Part shown: positions 13,560 to 26,428 of the stretch, one piece after another | Numbering within the stretch: the first letter of the stretch is position 1 | Layout: every line of letters starts with the position of its first letter | Origin: Flavobacteriales bacterium | GTDB lineage: Bacteria > Bacteroidota > Bacteroidia > Flavobacteriales > Flavobacteriaceae | Assembly (NCBI GenBank): GCA_027065715.1 | Contig: JAMONO010000096.1 | Span: forward strand, 1 to 32,901 | Direction of reading: 5' to 3' | Length of the DNA: 32,901 nt | Notes under the pieces: model-generated | Database searches by the model: none | What the model was told of the DNA's origin: nothing | What the model saw: only the letters and a program-made list of their open reading frames with translations | Made by a program: the position numbers and the translations under genes

Positions 13560-15571
13560 AAAATACACTTTTAACCATATTGCTGTTTTTTATCATCGGA
13601 ACCGAAATCAGTTGGGCACAAAAACCCAAATTCGGTCATGTAAACCGTAAAGAACTAAGCGAAAAAAAATTCGTTCAAGACACCAGTGTCAATGCCCGTA
13701 TCCTATACTACGAACGCATTGCCTATTTTGATTTCTCAACCAATGAAGGTTTGGTATTAAAGGAAGACCACTATATGCGTATCAAAATTTACAACAAAAG
13801 CGGATATGATTATGCAACACATTCAATACCATTGTATCATGACAGCCATACCAAAGAACGTATTATGCGATTAAAAGCCTTTACCTATAATTTGATAAAC
13901 GGAAAAATTGTTAAAAACAAATTGAGCAAAAAAAATATTTTTAATGAAAAGACCAACAATCATTACAATCAGGTTAAATTCACCATGCCCAATATAAAAC
14001 CCGGTTCGATTGTTGAGTGGAAATATACATTTGTTACCCCGTTTGCCGAGACCATGAACCCTTTTGTTATTCAACGAGACATACCTGTCAAACAAGTCTA
14101 TTTCAAGATCAAAGTGCCCGAGTTTTTGGGTTATCGTCCCATTATCAAAGGATATTTGCCAGTTCAAATTAAAAAAAGCACCAATAGCCGGAGCATGACA
14201 TTTTACAGTAATGTTCGAACAGGCGGAGTAGGATTTACTCCGGTTGAACATTCCACTAAAAGAACCGAAATCAGTTTTACCGAAACGGTTTATGAAATTA
14301 ACAAAACCAATATACCTGCTCTCAAAGACGAACCCTTGTCAGGCAATATCGACAATTATCGTTCGGCTATTTTAATGGAACTTTATTACCTGGATTATCC
14401 GGGTGAACCCCGCAAAATGTTGGCCGTAACATGGGAAGATGTTGCCAAAGAAACCTTTAAAGAAAGTAAATTCGGCGGACAATTAAAGAAAAAAAATTAT
14501 CTAAAAACAGACCTCAAACACCTGGCAAATTTAAAAGATGAAGAAAAAATTACAGCAGTTCTCGAATTTGCCAAGAAAAAGGTAAAATGGAATAAAGAAT
14601 ATGGCTACCGAACCCAAAAAGGCGTAGTAAAAGCTTATAAAACAGGCACCGGCAACGTAGCTGATGTAAACCTGAATTTGATCAATATGTTAAATGTTGT
14701 CGGACTGGAAGCTACTCCCGTATTGGTGAGCACCGTATCAAACGGTATCCCGATTTTTCCAACCCGTAGCGGATTTAACTATGTCATTGCAGCCGTTAAA
14801 ATGAATAACAAGTGGATACTACTCGATGCCACCGAAAAAAACTCCATACCCAATGTGTTGCCCGAAAGAACTTTAAATTTTCAAGGCAGATTAATTCACA
14901 ACGACGGCTCTTCCGAAGCAATTGAGTTATTCCCGAATTTTTTTAGTTCAAAATTAAGAAACGTTTCGGTTAAATTAAATGACGACAATGAAATAGAAGG
15001 CTTACTTTTTAATCGTTATGACAATTATTTTGCCATGAAAAACCGAATAAAACTACAAAACAAAAGAGCCGACGAAATTAAACAATGGTTTCAAAACCAT
15101 TATGACGATTTGGATATTGTCCAATCCCAAATAAAAAATTTAGATAACCCCTACCAAAACATCAAAGAAAAAGTGCAGTTTGAAACGGACAATTTTGTAG
15201 AAAACATTGAAGGTAAAATATACATAACCCCGTTATTGACTTGGCGCTTTGAAAACAACCCGTTTAAATCCAAAGAAAGAAAATTTCCCGTTTTCTTCAA
15301 ATTTCCTCATATATTATCGTCAACAATCAATTGGACTATCCCCGATAAATACGAGATAGAACAAATACCCGAAAATGCCAATTACACTTTTGGCGACAAA
15401 ATTGGTTCTTTTGATTACCAAATACTAAAAAATGGCAATAAACTGAATATAAAAAGTAATTTCATTATAAATTATTCCGTTATCCCCGAAGAGGATTACC
15501 AAGCACTCAAAGAGTTTATGGACAAAGTAATTTCAAAACAAAATGAAAAAATTGTTTTAAGAGAAAAATAA
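13556..15571 (+). CDS. DUF3857 / transglutaminase-like domain protein with degenerate active site
   Basis: DUF3857-like N-terminal half; core GTGNVADVNLNLINMLNVVGLEATPVLVST...FNYVIAAVKMNNKWILLDATE. 4-nt overlap with the preceding gene. Confidence 0.85.
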   Translation: MKNTLLTILLFFIIGTEISWAQKPKFGHVNRKELSEKKFVQDTSVNARILYYERIAYFDFSTNEGLVLKEDHYMRIKIYNKSGYDYATHSIPLYHDSHTKERIMRLKAFTYNLINGKIVKNKLSKKNIFNEKTNNHYNQVKFTMPNIKPGSIVEWKYTFVTPFAETMNPFVIQRDIPVKQVYFKIKVPEFLGYRPIIKGYLPVQIKKSTNSRSMTFYSNVRTGGVGFTPVEHSTKRTEISFTETVYEINKTNIPALKDEPLSGNIDNYRSAILMELYYLDYPGEPRKMLAVTWEDVAKETFKESKFGGQLKKKNYLKTDLKHLANLKDEEKITAVLEFAKKKVKWNKEYGYRTQKGVVKAYKTGTGNVADVNLNLINMLNVVGLEATPVLVSTVSNGIPIFPTRSGFNYVIAAVKMNNKWILLDATEKNSIPNVLPERTLNFQGRLIHNDGSSEAIELFPNFFSSKLRNVSVKLNDDNEIEGLLFNRYDNYFAMKNRIKLQNKRADEIKQWFQNHYDDLDIVQSQIKNLDNPYQNIKEKVQFETDNFVENIEGKIYITPLLTWRFENNPFKSKERKFPVFFKFPHILSSTINWTIPDKYEIEQIPENANYTFGDKIGSFDYQILKNGNKLNIKSNFIINYSVIPEEDYQALKEFMDKVISKQNEKIVLREK

Positions 15572-15654
15572 TATTTTTGTATAATAATTAGCAACACTCA
15601 AAAATTCAATAAGTAAACACAAAAAAATATTAGACATTTTATTAAATTAACAAA

Positions 15655-16905
15655 TTATATTTTTATCAATTTATACATTATTTTCGGGTGTCGGGTATCG
15701 GTATTTACCCAAGCAATCAAAAGTGTGTTGTCAAAAGCCGTTATCACCGCATGGTTATTGTTTGTTTCGGGTTTACTTATTTCTTTTATAGTGATTTTAC
15801 CATCTTTGGTTAAGGTATTTAATACAATTTTATAGTATCCTTTTCCGTTTTGTTCATAATACTCTTCATATACTCTATAAAAATTTCCTTTGGCAGCTGT
15901 CATTTGCGGATGCCTGCCTTCGACGGAAATTTTTTGACGAGACAAAAAACCGTTTTGACGACGAGTTGTAAAAAACAAACCGGGCTCATTGTGTGCCGCC
16001 GTAAACCAAATTGCCCCCAAACTTTCTCCATTATATGCCAAAGAAGGTCCCGTATGCGGACAACCGTAGATATGCCAATTGTCTTTACTGATAGGTTCGG
16101 GAACCGAAAAACTGCGAAGACTGTCTTTTGAAACCAAATAATACATATCTCTGATTTCGGTTTGCCCGTAACCGTCAAAACCCGTTTCATCTGGTTCAAT
16201 CAAATTGCGATAAGCAATATTAATATATCCGCGTTCATCGACATACAGTTCGGTTCGACAACACTCACAAGTTGAAAAAGCTACCGGTTTTTGTATTGAA
16301 AATCTGTTTAACGAATCACTTTTTGCCACATACAAAGTTTTTCCACGTTTTTTACTCCTACTGTCAAGCCAAATAAGCCCCATATTATTATCGGGCAAAA
16401 CGGTTATATCATAAAATGATTGACTGGTTGAAACAGTATCCTTCACCAATTTAAACTGTTTTGACCAAGTATTGCCTTTGTCTTTTGAAAAAACATAATA
16501 AATGTGCCCGCCAAATCGTGTTTTATCATCTTTTGATTTTTTTCGATACACGGCAAACAATGTTCCGTCCGGTTTTATTCCAACCTTTGCCATACTTTCG
16601 GCATGCATTTGCAAACCTTTTGAACCCGGTACGGTTTTTATGCTGTCAAATTTGCGTGTTTTAGTATCAAAAATCGCATATTTTAACAAATTGTTTCTTT
16701 TGTTATGTGCGTCCCATTCCGTCCAGTTCAATACAATATTGGTTCCGTTGTTAAACAAAAAGGGAGCTTCCGAATTATGTTCCAAATCGGTAAAAACAAA
16801 AATTGTATTTTCTGTCTGTCCATGTTTTTTAATGGTTTTTAAATTATTTTGACGACAGTTTAAAAACAATAATATTACCAATAAATACCATATTCTTTTT
16901 TTCAT
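15655..16905 (-). CDS. sialidase/BNR-like beta-propeller lipoprotein with CECC motif
   Basis: Lipobox LLFLNC; BNR-type motifs (SKDKGNTWSKQF); CECCRTELYVDERGYINIAYRN...EIRDMYYLVSKD and YGCPHTGPSLAYNGESLGAIWFTAAHNEPG. Confidence 0.78.
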   Translation of the reverse strand: MKKRIWYLLVILLFLNCRQNNLKTIKKHGQTENTIFVFTDLEHNSEAPFLFNNGTNIVLNWTEWDAHNKRNNLLKYAIFDTKTRKFDSIKTVPGSKGLQMHAESMAKVGIKPDGTLFAVYRKKSKDDKTRFGGHIYYVFSKDKGNTWSKQFKLVKDTVSTSQSFYDITVLPDNNMGLIWLDSRSKKRGKTLYVAKSDSLNRFSIQKPVAFSTCECCRTELYVDERGYINIAYRNLIEPDETGFDGYGQTEIRDMYYLVSKDSLRSFSVPEPISKDNWHIYGCPHTGPSLAYNGESLGAIWFTAAHNEPGLFFTTRRQNGFLSRQKISVEGRHPQMTAAKGNFYRVYEEYYEQNGKGYYKIVLNTLTKDGKITIKEISKPETNNNHAVITAFDNTLLIAWVNTDTRHPKIMYKLIKI

Positions 16906-16929
16906 TTTTCTGAATTTTTATTTTAAAAA

Positions 16930-17031
16930 AGGCTGTTTTAAAAGTGCCTTTTAATATCGACAAGCAAATTTCAAATCTTAGACGAAATCGGTATTAGAAA
17001 TAATTGAAAATCCGATCTTTTAAAACAGCCT
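16930..17031 (-). repeat. 15-bp perfect inverted repeat between TonB-receptor and propeller genes
   Basis: AGGCTGTTTTAAAAG (16930-16944) and CTTTTAAAACAGCCT (17017-17031); a U run follows on the minus strand. Confidence 0.85.
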
Positions 17032-17049
17032 CATACAAGCATTATTTAA

Positions 17050-19335
17050 TTATTTAAAAATATATGATACTCCGATATTAACCGAACGAATTTCGCCCGG
17101 TCGATAAGAAGTTCCCCAAGCCGATTTACTGGCAGAAGTAGCATACAACTCATTGGTCAGGTTTAGGATATTAAACCAAACATTAAAGCCGTTCATACGT
17201 TTTCCTATTCTCAAATTATAAGTATCATAACCTTCGTATTTTTTTGTATTGGCTTCGTCCATATAGTAAGGATCGACATGAAACCATTCCAATCCCATGT
17301 ATGCACCTTTGATATATGAAGGGTGATATTTTATTTCGGAACTCATGATTAATTTGGGTGCTCCCGGCATTTCGTTTCCCGAATAATCTTTACCCTTGGG
17401 TGTATAAACATCAAATAGATGTGAACTAATGGCTCCGTTAAATTTGAATGTCAATTCTTTGGCAGCAAAAATTTGCGTGCTAAATTCCAGTCCACGGTGG
17501 GTAGTTTCCGCAACATTTTGATTGACACGAGAACCGTCATTCTGTTTTACCGAAATAATTTCGTTTTCGGCTTTTAGAACATAATACGACAAGTCCAAAA
17601 CAAATCTGTTGTTAAACAAACTTACCCAAGTTCCTCCTTCATAATTATTGTAGTAAACTGGGTCTAAACTCGGTACTTTTACACCACGATAAAGTTCACC
17701 GACTTCGGGTGGACGAAAACCCTTACTGTAATTGGCATAAAAACTCAATTGATTATTAACCTTGTAAACCAATCCGAATTTGGGTGTAAAGGCTTTAAAA
17801 GAATCTTTTGAATCGGGTGCTCCCGAATAAGCTTCCGTTCCCAAATTGTTGCTGTAATCATAATTAATATTGTCATATCTGAAAGCTGCCAAAAATTTAA
17901 ATTGATCATTCAATTTGTATTGAGCATTGGCAAAAATTCCAACATTAAACAAATTGACATTATAATCGGTCAATAAAGAATCGGTTTCTTGGTAAGTATC
18001 ATAAATTGCATCGTCCGTTTTATGCACCTTAATATATTTGGCATAATATGAATTGGGACTATAATCAAACGAAATACCTCCGGTTAAGTTCAATTTTTCT
18101 GTTTTAACTTGATCTTGAATAACACTACCTATACTGTAAAATTTGTTTTCGTTGATTTGTCCGTGTGCCAAATTGGGGTCGCCCGTGTGTGCCCAAGGCT
18201 TGTAATCGTCTTTGATCCTATAATGTGGATTTTGTCCCACTTTGTTAAATCGGGCAAAAAGAGTGGCTCTTAAATAATTTTTTTTGCTTATTTGATGATT
18301 GATTTGCGAATAATAACGTAAGGCTTGCACCTTGCGGTATGTAAACCGATATTGCGAAGTTACATTTTGCGAATAAAAATACAAACTATCCAAACCTCCG
18401 GTCATGTCGGTCTTATAATCGATAAAATTAACAGCCGATTTGACGTATGTCTTGGAATTTAACTGACTGTTTATTTTAAAAAAAAACGAAATTTTGTCAT
18501 AGTCGGAATGTTCTCTATAACCGTTTTTTCTACCGCTATATGCCAGCGACCCTATAACACCGGTTTGGGCAAAACTATTTGATAACTCAACGCCTTCGGA
18601 AGAATATCCGTTGGTATTGGTTGTTGCAAAAAACTTATATGAAGGAGCCGCAGTAGGTTCTTTGGTTACAAAATTAATGGCACCGCCGATGGCATCACTG
18701 CCATACAAAGCCGAATAAGGACCTCTAATAATTTCGACTTTTTTTAACGAAATATGATTGATTTCAATCAAAGCATTGTGATTAAAAACACCGGTTGTTC
18801 TAATGGGAATACCATCTTCCAAATATAAAAATACACTTTTGTAACTTATGGGCTGTCTGATAGACATGGAATGTTGTTCATTGCCCAAATCCACCATCAT
18901 AACTCCCGGCGCTTTGTTTAATATTTCTTCCAGACTAACCGGTTTGGTTTCTTCAATTTCCTTTGCCGAAATTTGTGTTATGGATACAGGTACACCCTTA
19001 CGTTGTTGTCGTTCGGTACCGGTTGTAATAACCACTTTTTCCAATTGATCGGGTTTGGCGTTGAGCTTGATTATAGGGGGTATTTCCTCGGCTTTATATA
19101 TTTTGGTTTCATACCCGAGATAATTGATAGTTACTTGTGTATTAGCAGGCACATTTTTCATAATAAAATTACCTGTAATGTCGGTAACGGTTCCAAGATT
19201 ATCATCTACAAAAATATTGACTCCCATCAAGGCTTCATGTGTTTGATTATCAATAACTTTTCCTTTTATATCAATATTTTGTCCCCATAATATCAAAACA
19301 TAAAATAAATTAGATATCAATATTATTTTTTTCAT
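17050..19335 (-). CDS. TonB-dependent receptor with CarboxypepD_reg-like N-terminal domain
   Basis: GKVIDNQTHEALMGVNIFVDDNLGTVTDITGNFIMKNVP; plug VEIIRGPYSALYGSDAIGGAINFVTKEPT; C-terminal IGVSYIFK. Confidence 0.93.
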   Translation of the reverse strand: MKKIILISNLFYVLILWGQNIDIKGKVIDNQTHEALMGVNIFVDDNLGTVTDITGNFIMKNVPANTQVTINYLGYETKIYKAEEIPPIIKLNAKPDQLEKVVITTGTERQQRKGVPVSITQISAKEIEETKPVSLEEILNKAPGVMMVDLGNEQHSMSIRQPISYKSVFLYLEDGIPIRTTGVFNHNALIEINHISLKKVEIIRGPYSALYGSDAIGGAINFVTKEPTAAPSYKFFATTNTNGYSSEGVELSNSFAQTGVIGSLAYSGRKNGYREHSDYDKISFFFKINSQLNSKTYVKSAVNFIDYKTDMTGGLDSLYFYSQNVTSQYRFTYRKVQALRYYSQINHQISKKNYLRATLFARFNKVGQNPHYRIKDDYKPWAHTGDPNLAHGQINENKFYSIGSVIQDQVKTEKLNLTGGISFDYSPNSYYAKYIKVHKTDDAIYDTYQETDSLLTDYNVNLFNVGIFANAQYKLNDQFKFLAAFRYDNINYDYSNNLGTEAYSGAPDSKDSFKAFTPKFGLVYKVNNQLSFYANYSKGFRPPEVGELYRGVKVPSLDPVYYNNYEGGTWVSLFNNRFVLDLSYYVLKAENEIISVKQNDGSRVNQNVAETTHRGLEFSTQIFAAKELTFKFNGAISSHLFDVYTPKGKDYSGNEMPGAPKLIMSSEIKYHPSYIKGAYMGLEWFHVDPYYMDEANTKKYEGYDTYNLRIGKRMNGFNVWFNILNLTNELYATSASKSAWGTSYRPGEIRSVNIGVSYIFK

Positions 19336-19445
19336 TTTTATTTTTTTATTTATTAATATATTTGTTATATTTTTTTAGTAAAAACATAAGCCTCCCCGGT
19401 CAATTTTCCGGATAAGAAAATGACTGTTAAATCATAGAGGAGGTA

Positions 19446-19526
19446 AAGCAATACCGGAATTATATATTTTTTGAAAAATGAGAACGTTCGCCAAAAGTTC
19501 AACTCAAAAATATACCGGTATTGCTT
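19446..19526. repeat. long interrupted inverted repeat between lipoprotein and TonB-receptor genes
   Basis: AAGCAATACCGG (19446-19457) and CCGGTATTGCTT (19515-19526), plus an inner TATATTTTT/AAAAATATA arm after a 5-nt offset. Confidence 0.85.
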
Positions 19527-19555
19527 ATTTCAAATGAACCAAATCAATTTACTTT

Positions 19556-20320
19556 TTATTGGTGGTATGTAAAACGGGTTTTGCTGCAACCGTTTACTTC
19601 AAAGTTTTGACTGTTTCCGGTTACCGGTGTTCCGTTTTCAACTTTTTTTGCCGAAATAACCACAAAATAGTCGGTTCCGTCTTGCAATTCGGTTACCGGA
19701 CGCATCCAACCGTTGCTACCGTCAAGCGTAATGGTATGTGTTGAACGTGTTTTGTCGATCATGGGTACCTTATAAAAAGGTTTGGCATCGGCAGGCTTGC
19801 CGGTATTCGGATCAATTTCGATCAATTTGATACAATACAAATCGGCTTCGGGCGATGCCGTCCAATCGACTTTAATGGTTTGAGGACCGGCACTTTGATT
19901 GTACGTTAATGTGATTTGTGGCACGGTTGTATCTTCTCCTTCCAAAACATCGGTAAGGGTTTTGATATAACCGTCGCTAAACTTCAATTTAAAAGTATAA
20001 GTTCCGGCAGCAGGCATGTTGTTTGCCGGTTGTCCGGCTCCGGTCAATTTGCCGGCTCCTGCCCAAAACGAGTGCAAATCGTAAGTAGCACCGTCGGGAC
20101 CGGTTACACTGCTGCCATCGGCAACAATTTCTTCACCACCGGCAAAAAATATAGGTAAATATTTGGCATTACCCATCATCATCATTTTTTTGGTCAAAAC
20201 ATCGACATAAGCATCGTCGTGTGTATTTATAATTTCTTCTTCGTCATCATTGCTACAAGCGGTTATGGTGAATAACGAAGCAATCATTAACATGGAAATA
20301 AATATTTTTAAAGTTTTCAT
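19556..20320 (-). CDS. putative lipoprotein with Met-rich segment and fibronectin-like C-terminal region
   Basis: Lipobox FTITACSNDDEEE; KKMMMMGNAKYLPIFFAGG; between two TonB receptor genes on the same strand, 29 nt from the upstream receptor gene. Confidence 0.7.
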   Translation of the reverse strand: MKTLKIFISMLMIASLFTITACSNDDEEEIINTHDDAYVDVLTKKMMMMGNAKYLPIFFAGGEEIVADGSSVTGPDGATYDLHSFWAGAGKLTGAGQPANNMPAAGTYTFKLKFSDGYIKTLTDVLEGEDTTVPQITLTYNQSAGPQTIKVDWTASPEADLYCIKLIEIDPNTGKPADAKPFYKVPMIDKTRSTHTITLDGSNGWMRPVTELQDGTDYFVVISAKKVENGTPVTGNSQNFEVNGCSKTRFTYHQ

Positions 20321-20349
20321 ATTTTTTATTTTTTAATTAAGGTTAGAGG

Positions 20350-22635
20350 TTAAAATTTGTATTTCATAAAAACGCTGAAACTTCTGCCCGGTTCAAAAAT
20401 TCGACGTCCGTTGAGGTCATCGGCATTGACAAAGGCAAAATTTAAATGGTTGTAATAGGCTTCGTCGGTAATATTCAATACCGCTCCGCCTATTGACAAG
20501 CCTTTTACGGGTTTCCAACCCGCTCTAAAATCAAAAGTGGTATGTCCGGGAGTTTTTGTTTCTAAAAAACTCGGAGCATAATCGGTTTGATCTGCTACAA
20601 TTTCGGTGCGCAGGTCTAACCAATAATTGTTTTTTTCGTATTTAAAATCAAGATGTGCATTGGGCGGAGCAACTTGCGACAAAGGTTCGTCCAAAGTGGT
20701 ATTGTAAGCTTTGGTAAAAGCCATATCGGCACTTATCGTAAAATAATCGGTAAATTGATATGACACATAAGCATCAAAACCATATTGATAAGCATTGACA
20801 TTATTAAACACTTTGGGCGACTTGGGGGCGCCGCCACAACCACCTTCCGTTGATATGAGCGACGGGGTTAATACGGGTGTGATATAGTCTTGAAAATAAG
20901 AATAAAAAAGACTGGCACCGGTTTTAAAATCGCTCCATTTTTTTTGAACGGACCATTCTACCTGATTATTAATTTCGGGTTTTAAATTGGGGTTTCCGAT
21001 GTACTCACGCGAATCTCTTCCAACGATAAAACGGTATATATAACGTTCAATCATAGAAGGCGTTCGGGTGCCGCGTCCAAAAGCCAATTGGGTCTGAAAA
21101 TCGGTTTTTTTGTATTTAAGTGAGATATTTCCACCTACGGTTACATCGGTTTTTTGACCGATTTTGCCATAAATATCAATAAAACCTTTTGCCGGATCTT
21201 GACTTTCGGAGACTACATAATCGGTTCGTATGCCCAGGGTCAAATACAACTTGTCGGTCAGTTTTTTATTGGCTTCGGCAAAAACACCAAAATCATTGAT
21301 ATACGAGTCTTGCCATACCTTTAACTTTTTGACTATAACCGGGTCTAATGGCACTCCGGTTGCCGGATTATTATTGATAATTACGGTTTTGGTACCGTCT
21401 CGTCTAATTATATCGGCGTCTAATCCGGTATAAATCAACCAATTGTTTTTGGGGGTTAAAGCCAATTCAAATTTTCCGCCCATGGTATTGGACGTAACCG
21501 GTGTCCGTGCGTCAATACCGGGGTAGTTGGGACGGGGTTTATCCATTTCATATCCGTTAGTCATCAAATGATCGACATACGAATAGTATGACTTAAACTG
21601 CATATATTTGATTCTATCGGAAATTTTTTTGATTTTATAATCCAACCCCAACAAATAACTGTCGTCTTTGGGCGAATCCATCATCAATCCGGCATGTTTG
21701 ATATCACGTCCGAATTTTTGATGCCAATTGACCTGCAAACGTTGATTTTGATTAGGATTGTATCCCAACTTGATCGAATAGCTGTCGGTTTTAAATCCCG
21801 AAGAAGTCAATTGTCCGGCGCCGTCCGTATAGTCGCCAAAATCACGATGTTCGCCATCTATACTCAGGTCGTATTTTTTTTCGGCATACATGATGTCGGC
21901 ACGCATAACGGTATTGTTGCCGTTGGTTTCGTTACCAACCTGAAAATCGCCATGCCAACCGTAATCTTCGGGAGTAGGTTCGCGGGTTATCATATTGACA
22001 ATTCCTCCAAAAGTTTGCCCGAAACGAACGGTAAAGGGTCCTTTTACGACTTCTATTTTTCGCACCGATTCGGGTATCACATGAGCTGTAATAGGATCCA
22101 TGCGGTTGGGACATGCATTGACCATTTTGTTTCCTCCGTCATATTTAATGTTCATTTCTTCATATTTAAATGAACGTAACGAAGGTTCCATGGCTGATGC
22201 ACTTCTTTTTTGAATGTTAAAACCCGGTATATCTTTAAACAAATCGGCGACATTACGCGGCTGGCTGCCGTTTTTGACTTCGTCCATTACCACTATGGAG
22301 TGCGTTATGTCTTCTAAGGGATTGGCTTTTACAACCACTTCATCTAACGAGATGTTTTTGGGTTGTAAAAATATCTTGATACCGTTTTGAGCCGGTATCT
22401 CAACACTTATATATTCGGGGTGAGAAACCGACAAAACTTGTCCTTCGGTTGCCTTAATATGAAAAATACCGTCAAAATCGGAAGAACTTCGATTTTGAGT
22501 TTTTTTAACCAAAATTGTGGCTCCCGGAACAGGTTCGTGTGTTTCGGTATCAATTATTTTTCCTGTGACAGATGTATTTTGTGCATAAACAGTGCTTATG
22601 AACAAAACAAACATCCATTGCAATGTTGTTTTCAT
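20350..22635 (-). CDS. TonB-dependent receptor, OprC/NosA-like (putative copper receptor)
   Basis: CarboxypepD_reg-like N-terminus; plug NACPNRMDPITAHVIPESVRKIEVVKGPFTVRFGQTFGGIVNMITREP (CxxxM) and barrel YYSYVDHLMTNGYEMD (HxM), matching the CxxxM-HxM copper site described for OprC. Confidence 0.85.
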   Translation of the reverse strand: MKTTLQWMFVLFISTVYAQNTSVTGKIIDTETHEPVPGATILVKKTQNRSSSDFDGIFHIKATEGQVLSVSHPEYISVEIPAQNGIKIFLQPKNISLDEVVVKANPLEDITHSIVVMDEVKNGSQPRNVADLFKDIPGFNIQKRSASAMEPSLRSFKYEEMNIKYDGGNKMVNACPNRMDPITAHVIPESVRKIEVVKGPFTVRFGQTFGGIVNMITREPTPEDYGWHGDFQVGNETNGNNTVMRADIMYAEKKYDLSIDGEHRDFGDYTDGAGQLTSSGFKTDSYSIKLGYNPNQNQRLQVNWHQKFGRDIKHAGLMMDSPKDDSYLLGLDYKIKKISDRIKYMQFKSYYSYVDHLMTNGYEMDKPRPNYPGIDARTPVTSNTMGGKFELALTPKNNWLIYTGLDADIIRRDGTKTVIINNNPATGVPLDPVIVKKLKVWQDSYINDFGVFAEANKKLTDKLYLTLGIRTDYVVSESQDPAKGFIDIYGKIGQKTDVTVGGNISLKYKKTDFQTQLAFGRGTRTPSMIERYIYRFIVGRDSREYIGNPNLKPEINNQVEWSVQKKWSDFKTGASLFYSYFQDYITPVLTPSLISTEGGCGGAPKSPKVFNNVNAYQYGFDAYVSYQFTDYFTISADMAFTKAYNTTLDEPLSQVAPPNAHLDFKYEKNNYWLDLRTEIVADQTDYAPSFLETKTPGHTTFDFRAGWKPVKGLSIGGAVLNITDEAYYNHLNFAFVNADDLNGRRIFEPGRSFSVFMKYKF

Positions 22636-22914
22636 TATTTTATACGTATTTATTTGATAATCTGTTAGTTATAAAACTTTTCGGTTTTTTTCTCATATAT
22701 GTTTTCCTGACCGTCTGTTGCTACAAATCGTCCAATAAAATTGAACCGAACTATTGTTCTTTGTTGTTTGAATTAAACATACATCTCTTATCTTGTAATC
22801 GTATTGGTGTAATACCAAAAACCGTTATTCAATTTTTGAAAAATTTACAGGTCATTTTACGATACAAGTTTTTCAAACTACTGACGGTAATCAAAAAAAC
22901 ACAAATTCGATTTA

Positions 22915-23310
22915 TCAAATAAATACAGGTGGGGGTTTGAGAAGTTTTAACCTAAAACCGCTACTGGTTTTGGCACAGATAAAAATTTCGGCTTGTATTT
23001 CGTAGTTAAATTTGATATAGTAATACACCAAAATATTTTTGGAGAAATATATGGTATATTCTTTGAGTTTTAATTCGGGAAGTGTTGTTTTTTTGTTGGG
23101 TGATTTGGATTCATCATCGCCCAAAACTTTTTTAATTTCTTTTTTCAGATGACATTTTCCGTTACAGTGCATCTCGGGTTTGTCTTTATTTACACAAAGT
23201 TCTTCCGAAATGTATTTGTAATTGACAATATAATCCACCACGGGTATAGCAGGTGCCACTATAACCCCCGAATATATAATAATTAATATGTAAGAAACAA
23301 ATTGTTTCAA
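22915..23310 (-). CDS. small membrane-anchored Cys-motif protein
   Basis: N-terminal hydrophobic segment, LCVNKDKPEMHCNGKCHLKKEIKK motif, C-terminal KPPPVFI. Confidence 0.65.
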   Translation of the reverse strand: MKQFVSYILIIIYSGVIVAPAIPVVDYIVNYKYISEELCVNKDKPEMHCNGKCHLKKEIKKVLGDDESKSPNKKTTLPELKLKEYTIYFSKNILVYYYIKFNYEIQAEIFICAKTSSGFRLKLLKPPPVFI

Positions 23311-23542
23311 ATTTAACCTAAGTTTTTTTTTAGTAGAATTTACAAGATTAATTTGCTTGATTTGCTCCGGCTATACAAAGCACAAGAACACAACCTATAA
23401 TTAAAGGGACTTGTAATAACACCCAAAAAGTGTATTATGAGGATATTTGTATATCTCAAATAGATTGAACCAAAAGCTAAATAATAACATATTTGCAGTA
23501 TTACTACAAATCCCTAAGCTAAAAATAAAGTAGTTGTATAGC

Positions 23543-23968
23543 TTAGGCAAACTGTGGAGGTCTAAAAAGTTTTTGGTTATAAGAACTCAAAGGGGGTTGG
23601 ATAATGAAATCTGAAATTTTGGTAAAATTATTTTCGGGACAGGTATAAACCGGTGGTATGTTTTCAAAAAGTTTGACTACAAAAACCGATATATTTAAAA
23701 CCTGCAATTTGGGTGTTTGTTTTTTTTGGTCGTTACACACTCTTTTGATAAGAGCTTTGAGGTAAGCGTCACCGTTTGATGCCATTTTGGCTTCATCGCT
23801 TTGACAAGAACAATCGCAATCGTCCGGAACTATTTGAACCATTTTATTCGATTGTTGCACCAAATAATATTGAACAAAAGGAACCAACGGCTGCAAAATA
23901 ACAGCCGAAAAAACAAAAATTAACAATATGCCTAAAAGTTTGTTCCTCAAGTTACATAAATTTACCAA
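23543..23968 (-). CDS. small membrane-anchored Cys-rich protein (paralogue of 22915-23310)
   Basis: N-terminal hydrophobic segment, DDCDCSCQSDEAKMASNGDAYLKALIKRVC, C-terminal RPPQFA; layout parallels the downstream gene. Confidence 0.6.
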   Translation of the reverse strand: MVNLCNLRNKLLGILLIFVFSAVILQPLVPFVQYYLVQQSNKMVQIVPDDCDCSCQSDEAKMASNGDAYLKALIKRVCNDQKKQTPKLQVLNISVFVVKLFENIPPVYTCPENNFTKISDFIIQPPLSSYNQKLFRPPQFA

Positions 23969-24012
23969 AGCAAATATATAAAATATTTTTTAAGACACCA
24001 AAAGGTCTTTTA

Positions 24013-24804
24013 TTACAAATCGTTTCTTTGCAAAAAACGTTTGATTACCATAGGCATTTCGTCTTTGTTTTCGACATAGCTCATGTGTCCGTCTCCCAGT
24101 TCGATATAATCGGTTCCTTTGCAATGTTCGGCTAAGCTTCTTATTTTGTCCAAATCAATCAGGGGGTCTTTTTTGCCTACAATCCACAATTTGGGATATT
24201 GTTGTCGCGAACAAAACATTTCGGAACGGTCTTTACGCAACTTCATTCCTTTAAGAGCGGCAATAATGTTTTCGGGTGTCATTTTTAAAGCTTCCAAAAC
24301 AAGTTTTTGAATATCGTCTTTATATTTTTGACGATTATCGGGAGCAAAAAAACTGGGAATAGCGGCTTTAACATAAGCCTCATAATTTCGTTGAACGGTT
24401 TTAACCGCTCGTTCACGTGCTTCTTGCTTTTCAAAATTATCGGCAAAAGGATGTGAATTGAGCAAGCCCAGTGCCGCAACTTTTTCGGGGTACAATTCGG
24501 CAAATGCCAAGCTGATGTATCCGCCCATACTGTGACCGATAATGGTAGCCTGCAATATTTTTTCTCTATCGAGCAAATCTTTTATCAACATGGCTTGCTG
24601 TTCCATGGTATGCACATCGCATAATCCGTCACTGCTACCGTGTCCCAACAAATCGAGTGTATATATTTTGTGGTCTTCTTTGAGTGCATCGACAACTATA
24701 TCCCACATTTTGTGATTTTCCAAAAAACCGTGCACCAAAATAACCGGATTGCCCTCTCCTCGTGATTTATAATAGATTTCTGTTTTTTTGTAGGTATATT
24801 TCAT
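24013..24804 (-). CDS. alpha/beta hydrolase
   Basis: VILVHGFLENHKMWD, IIGHSMGGYISLAFAELYPEKVAALGLLNS, late His ELGDGHMSYVEN. Confidence 0.93.
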   Translation of the reverse strand: MKYTYKKTEIYYKSRGEGNPVILVHGFLENHKMWDIVVDALKEDHKIYTLDLLGHGSSDGLCDVHTMEQQAMLIKDLLDREKILQATIIGHSMGGYISLAFAELYPEKVAALGLLNSHPFADNFEKQEARERAVKTVQRNYEAYVKAAIPSFFAPDNRQKYKDDIQKLVLEALKMTPENIIAALKGMKLRKDRSEMFCSRQQYPKLWIVGKKDPLIDLDKIRSLAEHCKGTDYIELGDGHMSYVENKDEMPMVIKRFLQRNDL

Positions 24805-24887
24805 CGTTTGTTTATATTTAGTATTCTGTTTGTTTCGGATTTTTCAAATTTAATAAAAAAATGAAGATTTTGGTTTGATTTTATACA

Positions 24888-24930
24888 CAAAAAAAACCTT
24901 TTATTCATAACAAGACGAATAAAAGGTTTA
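24888..24930 (-). terminator. rho-independent terminator after the T9SS-protein gene
   Basis: 13-bp perfect stem AAACCTTTTATTC/GAATAAAAGGTTT (24894-24906 / 24917-24929); on the minus strand it is followed by a U run. Confidence 0.85.
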
Positions 24931-24973
24931 CTAAGGAAAAACAAACAACAACTATTATGAACAATAATTCGGA

Positions 24974-26428
24974 TTATTTTTTGATGATTTTACCTGCAAA
25001 ATTGTTTCTATCTGTCTTAACATGGTATATATAAACGCCGTTTGGCAACATACTCAAGTCAATTGTAGTATTATTGTAATGGGTAGCTTTATATACAATT
25101 CGATCTTGCAAATCGGTTATGAATACTTCAAGTCCTGTCGAATTGGTTTTAACATTGATATTGACAACTGTTTGAAAAGGGTTGGGAAAAAACGAAATCT
25201 TATCATTTGCTAAATCGTTCAAATCATTGACCGACGATGAATATTTATAAGACGATTTATAAGTTTCGGCCCAAGTATCGTTGATGGAATTTCTTGAATA
25301 ATTTGTAACAAACAATAACTTATTGGCAAAAACATTAAAATACGGCGTGTGAAAATCAAAAATTTGTTCAACCAATTCGCGATTATTTTGCATTTCGACA
25401 GGCAAATTCAAATCGTTTTTGACAAAATTCAAATCATATTCATAAACTTCTTTATTGATGCCGTCTGTCATCCATATTTGACTTGCTTGATCCCAACCTA
25501 TATTGGTTACGGTAACTTGATTGCCGTTTCGTTGATAAGTATTTTTGGAATTTCCTGACCAAGCCGACAAACTTGCATTCCAATACAAATAAGCCGCCTC
25601 TGACAACTCTCCCGAATTTAAGTCTTTTTTATATATGGTTTGTGAACTGTTTGTCCACACACCACTATTCCAACTTTGTATTGTTACTTCAATCTGCTCA
25701 ATTGAAGCGGTAGCTGTATAAACAAAGTTTATTTTTTGGGTATTATCCCATTGATTTGCACTCCACTGTTGCACTAATTGTTGCAATACACGATTGTTGT
25801 TATCATAGGTTCTGCTCCATTTCATTTGTGGTTGCCAAACATTACCGGTCATATCATAAACTTCGAGTAATATCTCGGTAAAATCCCAATTGGCATTAAA
25901 AGTTATGGTTGCTTTTTGGGTATATAACCAAGTATTACCAACATTGTCCCAACTCCAAATTTGAACCTCAGTAGGATAGGGGTCTCCCGCCATTGCATAA
26001 ACATAAATTTCTTTGTCTTGATTGACAAAAGAGGCAGTGTTAATATCAAAAACTTGTTCGACTTTTTCTAACAATCGACCGTTTGAATTGTAAGTGTAAA
26101 GCGTTTTTTCATAAGGTTGCAATTGCATTGTGTTGCTATTATAAGTATATTGGGTTAAACTTGTCAAACCGTGAGCTCCGTGTGTGTATTCGGTTTTATA
26201 ATTGGGAACCAAAACTGACGAATTGGTATTCCATTGTGCATATTGGCTCAATATGTTTTTTTGATTGGTATCATACGAAAACAGGTGCATATCGGACAAA
26301 TAATAAGTATTGTCATTCGAATTGTAACTTTTTACCACTACACTGTCAAGTCTTTGCAAATTGTTCTGTGCACTTAGCGACAAAATAACGATATTAAAAA
26401 ATAAAATAAGTTGTAATTTTGTTTTCAT
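24974..26428 (-). CDS. secreted Trp/Tyr-rich repeat protein with T9SS type A sorting domain
   Basis: C-terminal tail FFPNPFQTVVNINVKTNSTGLEVFITDLQDRIVYKATHYNNTTIDLSMLPNGVYIYHVKTDRNNFAGKIIKK; repeated W-N/D-x-W and YxY segments. Confidence 0.88.
   Translation of the reverse strand: MKTKLQLILFFNIVILSLSAQNNLQRLDSVVVKSYNSNDNTYYLSDMHLFSYDTNQKNILSQYAQWNTNSSVLVPNYKTEYTHGAHGLTSLTQYTYNSNTMQLQPYEKTLYTYNSNGRLLEKVEQVFDINTASFVNQDKEIYVYAMAGDPYPTEVQIWSWDNVGNTWLYTQKATITFNANWDFTEILLEVYDMTGNVWQPQMKWSRTYDNNNRVLQQLVQQWSANQWDNTQKINFVYTATASIEQIEVTIQSWNSGVWTNSSQTIYKKDLNSGELSEAAYLYWNASLSAWSGNSKNTYQRNGNQVTVTNIGWDQASQIWMTDGINKEVYEYDLNFVKNDLNLPVEMQNNRELVEQIFDFHTPYFNVFANKLLFVTNYSRNSINDTWAETYKSSYKYSSSVNDLNDLANDKISFFPNPFQTVVNINVKTNSTGLEVFITDLQDRIVYKATHYNNTTIDLSMLPNGVYIYHVKTDRNNFAGKIIKK

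Follow-up and report, generated by a model that had tools for sequence, protein, structure and literature searches.

A candidate copper-acquisition operon in a Flavobacteriales genome, with two TonB-dependent receptors, a CxCC propeller lipoprotein and CruR-like upstream open reading frames

We analysed a stretch of 32,901 nucleotides (hereafter the window: contig JAMONO010000096.1, positions 1 to 32,901, of the Flavobacteriales bacterium assembly GCA_027065715.1), which carries a set of six genes on its minus strand between positions 15655 and 23968 (Table 1). In order of transcription, these encode small open reading frame (ORF) A (smallA), small ORF B (smallB), an OprC-like TonB-dependent receptor, a lipoprotein with a Met motif, a second TonB-dependent receptor (TBDT2) and a beta-propeller lipoprotein with a CECC motif. 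A first-pass annotation, made from the sequence alone, had given the same six genes, their order and their shared strand, and all three were confirmed. We consider it probable that the set is a copper-acquisition operon in which CruR-like leaders precede the genes for two receptors and two lipoproteins, one with a Met motif and the other a CxCC propeller. The assignment to copper is well supported by association, its specificity resting on the ligands of the OprC-like receptor and on the neighbouring genes.

Table 1 Features of the six-gene set, in order of transcription (positions in the window)
Feature	Position	Strand	Comment
Small ORF A (smallA)	23543..23968	-	141 amino acids as listed; N-terminus hydrophobic; contains CDCSC and a C-terminal FRPP; gene 1 of the set
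CDCSC motif of small ORF A	23804..23818	-	variable in orthologues
Pro-Pro codons of smallA, within its C-terminal FRPP	23555..23560	-	candidate arrest motif
Gap between smallA and smallB, 232 bp	23311..23542	-	
Small ORF B (smallB), 131 amino acids	22915..23310	-	candidate copper-sensing upstream ORF, CruR-like architecture
CNGKC of smallB (a third Cys is residue 39)	23152..23166	-	
C-terminal PPP of small ORF B	22927..22935	-	candidate arrest motif
Gap between smallB and the OprC-like gene, 279 bp	22636..22914	-	candidate regulated-termination site
OprC-like TonB-dependent copper receptor, 761 amino acids	20350..22635	-	
CPNRM (C175, M179), OprC-type copper site, first half	22099..22113	-	
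HLM (H356, M358), OprC-type copper site, second half	21562..21570	-	
Lipoprotein, 254 amino acids; acidic stretch and Met motif	19556..20320	-	
MMMM of the lipoprotein (M46, M48 and M49 invariant in locus-linked homologues)	20174..20185	-	
Second TonB-dependent receptor (TBDT2), 761 amino acids, distinct family	17050..19335	-	
TBDT2 plug motif NEQHSMSIRQP (NEQHxMxIRQP)	18850..18882	-	
TBDT2 plug loop FNHN	18775..18786	-	
Beta-propeller lipoprotein, 416 amino acids, CxCC and CPH motifs	15655..16905	-	
CECC of the propeller (C213, C215, C216)	16258..16269	-	
GCPH of the propeller (C282, H284)	16054..16065	-	

The OprC-like receptor aligns over its full length with OprC of P. aeruginosa (6fok, E 2e-39; phmmer against the Protein Data Bank, PDB). 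In this alignment its CPNRM and DHLM fall on the ACPNRM and DHIM of OprC with all four copper ligands kept, which bears out the earlier assignment of an OprC-like receptor with a CxxxM-HxM site. Copper import by OprC and the presence of this site in it are established (PMC8610252, PMC11836926). Both ligand motifs are kept in all nine of the other Bacteroidota OprC-like receptors first aligned with the window protein, and in all those checked further except one that is heme-type and truncated by its contig (L193). The match to TIGR01778 (1e-74, 252.2 bits) lies under the equivalog cut-off of 472.45, as do those of the other Bacteroidota OprC-like receptors (132-256 bits), and the window receptor carries an N-terminal CarbopepD_reg_2 domain. 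Its membership of the OprC group is ordinary, not new. One genome (G307, L191:8248-16593) encodes two OprC-like receptors and a TBDT2 in tandem, each later receptor being preceded by a lipoprotein of 134-136 amino acids without Cys or PP motifs; this is a different composite built from receptors of the same kinds.

Scanning 85,462 species genomes gave 431 relatives of the propeller, and 80 loci were fetched. Of the 66 loci that extend far enough, 62 have a receptor gene directly upstream of the propeller gene and 57 have a small ORF close by; when read, at least two of the four scored as receptor-less prove to carry a receptor (L217, and L260, whose receptor is in two pieces). All six genes are present in the same order in three other loci from metagenome-assembled genomes (L217, L218 and L221). 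The succession OprC, lipoprotein, TBDT2 and propeller is kept in L213 and L214, up to the contig end, while the lipoprotein is missing and the small ORFs are somewhat variable in L210, L220, L222 and L228. The genes that follow the propeller encode MbnP and MbnH-like proteins in L278, and a small ORF and a YtkA-like protein in L230. A copper receptor standing by chance beside generic receptor and lipoprotein genes might be imagined, given how common TonB receptors are (17 Plug-domain matches in this genome), but we regard this as refuted and leave it next to no probability, since three other genomes keep the six genes in order and many more keep sub-modules.

In a class-wide sample of 194 genomes, propellers were detected in 42, the small ORF in 103, OprC-like receptors in 24 and TBDT2 in 11. 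Comparison of coordinates placed the small ORF next to TBDT2 in 10 of these 11 genomes (the exception is G307) and an OprC-like receptor in 16 of 24, sometimes with a YtkA-like gene between. The lipoprotein, the propeller and the small proteins all co-occur with OprC-like receptors, a point on which the first-pass annotation had made its proposal depend. The core of that proposal, a system capturing copper or another soft metal and coupled to the receptor, is strongly supported by the neighbourhoods; the small proteins are probably not uptake parts, and the propeller belongs with TBDT2 rather than with OprC. We assign it to TBDT2 because a small ORF, a receptor and a CxCC propeller stand alone in many genomes without a nearby OprC. 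In G024 (L010), for example, a smallB homologue and a TBDT2 homologue (the latter at 42% identity) accompany a CQCC propeller at 35%, and OprC is missing. Neither the libraries nor the open papers searched have a name for the receptor-propeller module, and we found no account of this family in the open-licence literature.

SmallA and smallB are related to each other (E 2.4e-7), smallA being a divergent member of the small-ORF family. They had been described as two small Cys-containing membrane proteins; their presence and their Cys residues were confirmed, but they are better described as leader-peptide-like ORFs than as membrane proteins. None of the 34 members scanned had a Pfam or NCBIfam match, and this is an unnamed Bacteroidota family. 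Among 148 homologues, 147 have PP at most nine residues from the C-terminus, compared with only 8 of 420 other ORFs of matched size. The C-terminal motif is mostly [IVLF]F[HRK]PP, chiefly IFHPP or VFHPP. CxGxC is present in 144 of the 148, in the arrangement C-x9-C-x3-C, and its spacing to PP is 63-70 residues in 136 of 143 (median 65), with almost no conservation between the two motifs. The N-terminus is hydrophobic in 93% of the family. From the small ORF to a receptor after it the median gap is 124 bp, against 6.5 bp from receptor to propeller. The orthologues of smallA (L210, L212, L217, L218 and L221) end in FRPP, YRPP or FHPP, and their Cys motif is variable (CNCSC, CTC, CACEC or CCC) and lost in L218. 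The listed start of smallA in the window is doubtful, an in-frame TTG at 23950 being equally likely.

Across the phylum, the small-ORF (FHPP) family was detected in 101 of 247 genomes (E 1e-6). The small ORF has three groups of partners: a receptor with a propeller; a YtkA-like lipoprotein with a short OprC-like receptor; and MbnP with either an MbnH-like peroxidase of the MauG type or a small barrel of the outer membrane. In 65 small-ORF loci chosen irrespective of their partners, a copper-type gene (MbnP, MbnH-like, YtkA, OprC-like, TBDT2 or the small outer-membrane barrel accompanying MbnP) is among the next three genes for 60 of the 65 small ORFs and for 14 of 367 other genes of these loci; because the models of the partner families were built from these same loci, the contrast describes the set and is not an independent test. 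What Pfam identifies the partners as (MbnP, CCP_MauG and YtkA) does not depend on these models.

Two of these arrangements recur as loci of their own. The first, seen at L092, L108, L109, L122, L126, L129, L130, L132, L134 and L137, consists of the small ORF, a Met/His-rich YtkA-like lipoprotein and, as receptor, a short OprC-like protein carrying GACT(D)KMDP and HxMDD, and looks like a second type of copper-uptake locus in Bacteroidota. In the second (L094, L102, L113, L114, L208 and others), the small ORF is found with MbnP and a MauG/MbnH-like peroxidase; loci of this MbnP type further encode either a GCHS cytochrome-like protein or a small Phenol_MetA_deg-like barrel of the outer membrane.

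The upstream ORF CruR (DUF2946) of Bordetella pertussis senses copper with a CXXC motif and stalls the ribosome with a C-terminal RAPP, the two motifs being at fixed spacing and the ORF being followed by a long gap; it stands at the head of operons for TonB receptors, some of them of OprC type, and of operons with MbnPH-like genes (PMC9426467). Stalling by CruR has been demonstrated in vitro (PMC12992588). Immediately upstream of plasmid-borne proteobacterial homologues of OprC we found a DUF2946 gene with RAPP, and therefore the DUF2946 and small-ORF families share their place ahead of one type of receptor. The small Cys proteins are probably CruR-like regulatory upstream ORFs, not membrane parts of the uptake machinery. 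The two lead ORFs would then encode copper-sensing leader peptides: when copper is scarce, the ribosome would pause at their C-terminal [F/L][H/R/K]PP and the downstream genes would be expressed, while copper bound to the Cys motif of the emerging peptide would release the pause, so that transcription would end in the gap before the receptor gene.

Several observations speak against such a role. No PF11162 (DUF2946) match was found among 34 small-ORF members, and a profile comparison of the two families (hhalign) returned a probability of 0.75%, that is, no detectable homology. The family's motif is not RAPP but [H/R/K]PP, it has C-x9-C-x3-C in place of the CXXC of CruR, and its Cys and PP motifs lie about 65 residues apart versus 45 in CruR. 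The gene preceding the small ORF is on the same strand in 95 of 138 cases, so the small ORF is not always demonstrably the head of an operon, and the RNA structure of the gaps after it is no different from that of control gaps (p 0.29). PF11162 itself occurs in only 2 of the 194 Bacteroidia genomes; in G182 (L291:1399-1794), a His-rich ORF of 131 amino acids with CTYC and a C-terminal RGPP is a rare true DUF2946-like ORF in Bacteroidia.

The small proteins could instead be genuine periplasmic or membrane carriers of copper encoded in the same copper operon. Their Cys motif and hydrophobic N-terminus would suit such carriers, the first-pass annotation took this view, and CutF, a DUF2946 protein, was itself originally taken for a chaperone (PMC9426467, PMC9973294). 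The near-invariant C-terminal PP at fixed spacing with little conservation in between, the constant placement before several unrelated kinds of copper genes and the long gap that follows are traits of regulatory leaders instead, and we consider carriers unlikely. Our preferred reading of the family as leaders can be carried further: it is somewhat more probable than its opposite that Bacteroidota own a separate and widespread family of copper-sensing arrest peptides, with a Cys motif and an FHPP-type C-terminus, which has come independently into the role of CruR and controls OprC, the new receptor-propeller system and the MbnP/MbnH loci throughout the phylum. A 2025 survey of RAPP/RGPP arrest peptides listed copper-linked leader ORFs in many lineages and none in Bacteroidota (PMC12992588), as is expected if the motif there is FHPP. 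We found no account of the FHPP family in the open-licence papers searched.

All nine TBDT2 family members compared, which are 34-44% identical to the window protein, have an invariant NEQHxMxIRQP in the plug, together with FNHN as [FY]NHN. Through these conserved plug residues (QHxM and FNHN) TBDT2 may import another form of copper, probably chelated. The beta-propeller fold predicted earlier for the adjoining CECC lipoprotein is supported: AlphaFold2 models it as a propeller with a predicted local distance difference test score (pLDDT) of 92, CxCC is present in all 80 relatives fetched, and C213, C215, C216, C282, H284 and H332 are invariant in 45 relatives. The CxCC/CPH propeller would act with TBDT2 by stripping copper, holding it or passing it on. 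The match to the sialidase/BNR model PF13088 (26.1 bits) is below the cut-off of 31.4.

One possible but rather doubtful role for the propeller is that of a surface lid like BtuG or XusB, capturing chelated metal for TBDT2. XusA-XusB of Bacteroides, a TonB receptor with a propeller lipoprotein as its lid (PMC13142918), sets the precedent, and the gene pair is of the same kind here. Against a lid, library scans of the propeller gave no match to DUF4374 or any other XusB family; its best structural matches in PDB are the propellers of sialidases, lyases and lectins at 9-13% identity, a likeness at the level of the fold; and the acidic surface-export signal is absent in 64 of the 65 relatives with a recognisable lipobox, although the rules for this signal differ among Bacteroidota. 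In two loci from the window's own family (L011:8915-10592 and L012:8538-10285), a CDCC propeller has a TlpA-like thioredoxin lipoprotein as its partner in place of a TonB receptor. This pairing, which also tells against a lid, suggests a thiol-linked and possibly periplasmic role for the propeller family.

The lipoprotein between the two receptors is rare, with five homologues in the 80 propeller loci, all encoded between the OprC-like gene and TBDT2. Two beta-sandwich domains similar to immunoglobulin (Ig) or fibronectin type III (Fn3) domains are predicted, and its 3D model gave generic Ig/Fn3 matches only. The Met-rich segment pointed out earlier (KKMMMMG) is kept as M-x-M-M by all six lipoproteins from loci of this type, M46, M48 and M49 being invariant in the five locus-linked homologues. 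An acidic stretch after the anchor Cys is a kind of surface-export signal in Bacteroidetes, and the lipoprotein has such a stretch (CSNDDEEE) after its lipid-anchor Cys. It is probably located on the cell surface, where it may feed copper through its Met motif to the OprC-type receptor, which in turn would import the metal through its conserved CxxxM-HxM site. A surface-export signal of Bacteroidetes lipoproteins is reported in PMC5080379.

For the operon as a whole, three points count against copper acquisition as proposed. TBDT2 and the propeller are assigned to copper by association, and propellers of the Pedobacter type adjoin a receptor of another type without QHxM and FNHN. The membrane face of the propeller is uncertain because it lacks the acidic surface-export signal. 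Finally, one distant relative of the lipoprotein (L193) adjoins a heme-type receptor; this relative is without the Met motif, which closer relatives retain. In these Pedobacter-type loci (L238, L246, L263 and others), which make up a subset found mainly in Pedobacter and its relatives, the receptor plug carries MDQSTLSEARISIRGNGVRASYGIRN in place of QHxM/FNHN.

The operon might serve another soft or transition metal, such as zinc, nickel or silver, or a metal-loaded xenometallophore, with copper incidental. The heme-type neighbour of L193 would fit this, as would the nearness of TBDT2 to siderophore-type and PqqU receptors and the occurrence of some DUF2946/CutF-like genes beside nickel or cobalt genes (PMC9973294). 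We nevertheless think it quite improbable, given that the copper ligands of OprC are fully retained, that the other partners of the small ORF are the MbnP/MbnH-like and YtkA families, and that MbnPH-like genes have likewise been reported with CruR (PMC9426467).

The edges of the module are clear because flanking genes vary from one species to another and, where tested (L227 and L230), have nothing to do with copper. A link to nos genes, hinted at by the lengths of upstream genes in these two loci, was rejected, as those genes belong to quinone/anaerobic metabolism. In the window, an alpha/beta hydrolase gene (24013-24804, minus strand) ends 44 bp ahead of smallA, and is probably outside the set because the genes upstream of smallA vary in related loci. 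The gap between TBDT2 and the propeller (16906-17049, minus strand) contains an inverted repeat of 14 bp (GGCTGTTTTAAAAG ... CTTTTAAAACAGCC) and, after it, a run of six T; the arms are about 65-70 bases apart and the genome has one copy. This repeat has no Rfam match; together with the T run, it could be a partial terminator lowering expression of the propeller. An Rfam scan of 15400-25000 found no family, and a promoter and terminator scan gave counts near those of shuffled sequence.

Copper acquisition is poorly known in Gram-negative bacteria and hardly studied in Bacteroidota. If the small lead genes are CruR-like, they would explain how copper uptake could be controlled in Bacteroidota without the known CruR family, and the FHPP family would fill, with a different motif, the gap that the arrest-peptide survey left in this phylum (PMC12992588). 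What looks new here is the small ORF as a CruR-like copper leader of a previously undescribed Bacteroidota version. As a mark of copper loci, the small ORF points to likely copper roles for the QHxM receptor, the CxCC propeller, the Met-motif lipoprotein and the YtkA-OprC and MbnP/MbnH loci.

Among known systems, the OprC/NosA type (TIGR01778) shares full-length homology and the four CxxxM-HxM ligands with the window receptor, which differs in its score below the cut-off and its CarbopepD_reg_2 domain. PqqU/YncD is the nearest solved structure to TBDT2 (9c4o, E 1.5e-25), but lacks the QHxM and FNHN motifs, and TBDT2 falls far under the cut-off of the PqqU model NF041535 (111 bits; cut-off 1200). 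XusA-XusB and BtuB-BtuG of Bacteroides resemble the locus in that a TonB receptor gene adjoins a propeller lipoprotein gene, whereas the window propeller is of another family (CxCC, CPH), without DUF4374 or the surface-export signal. With CruR/CutF, the small ORFs share a short exported-looking product, a Cys motif and a C-terminal PP at fixed spacing, the position ahead of TonB copper receptors, OprC or MbnPH, and the long following gap; they differ in having no detectable homology, in both motifs and the distance between them, and in belonging to Bacteroidota rather than Proteobacteria. The CrtA (BfrG) operon, cruR-crtA-bp2921, has a copper upstream ORF followed by a receptor that imports chelated copper (PMC12914433). 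The order of an upstream ORF, here a candidate copper sensor, and then a receptor is the same, but the third gene there encodes a PepSY_TM protein, whereas in the window a lipoprotein, a second receptor and a propeller complete the set.

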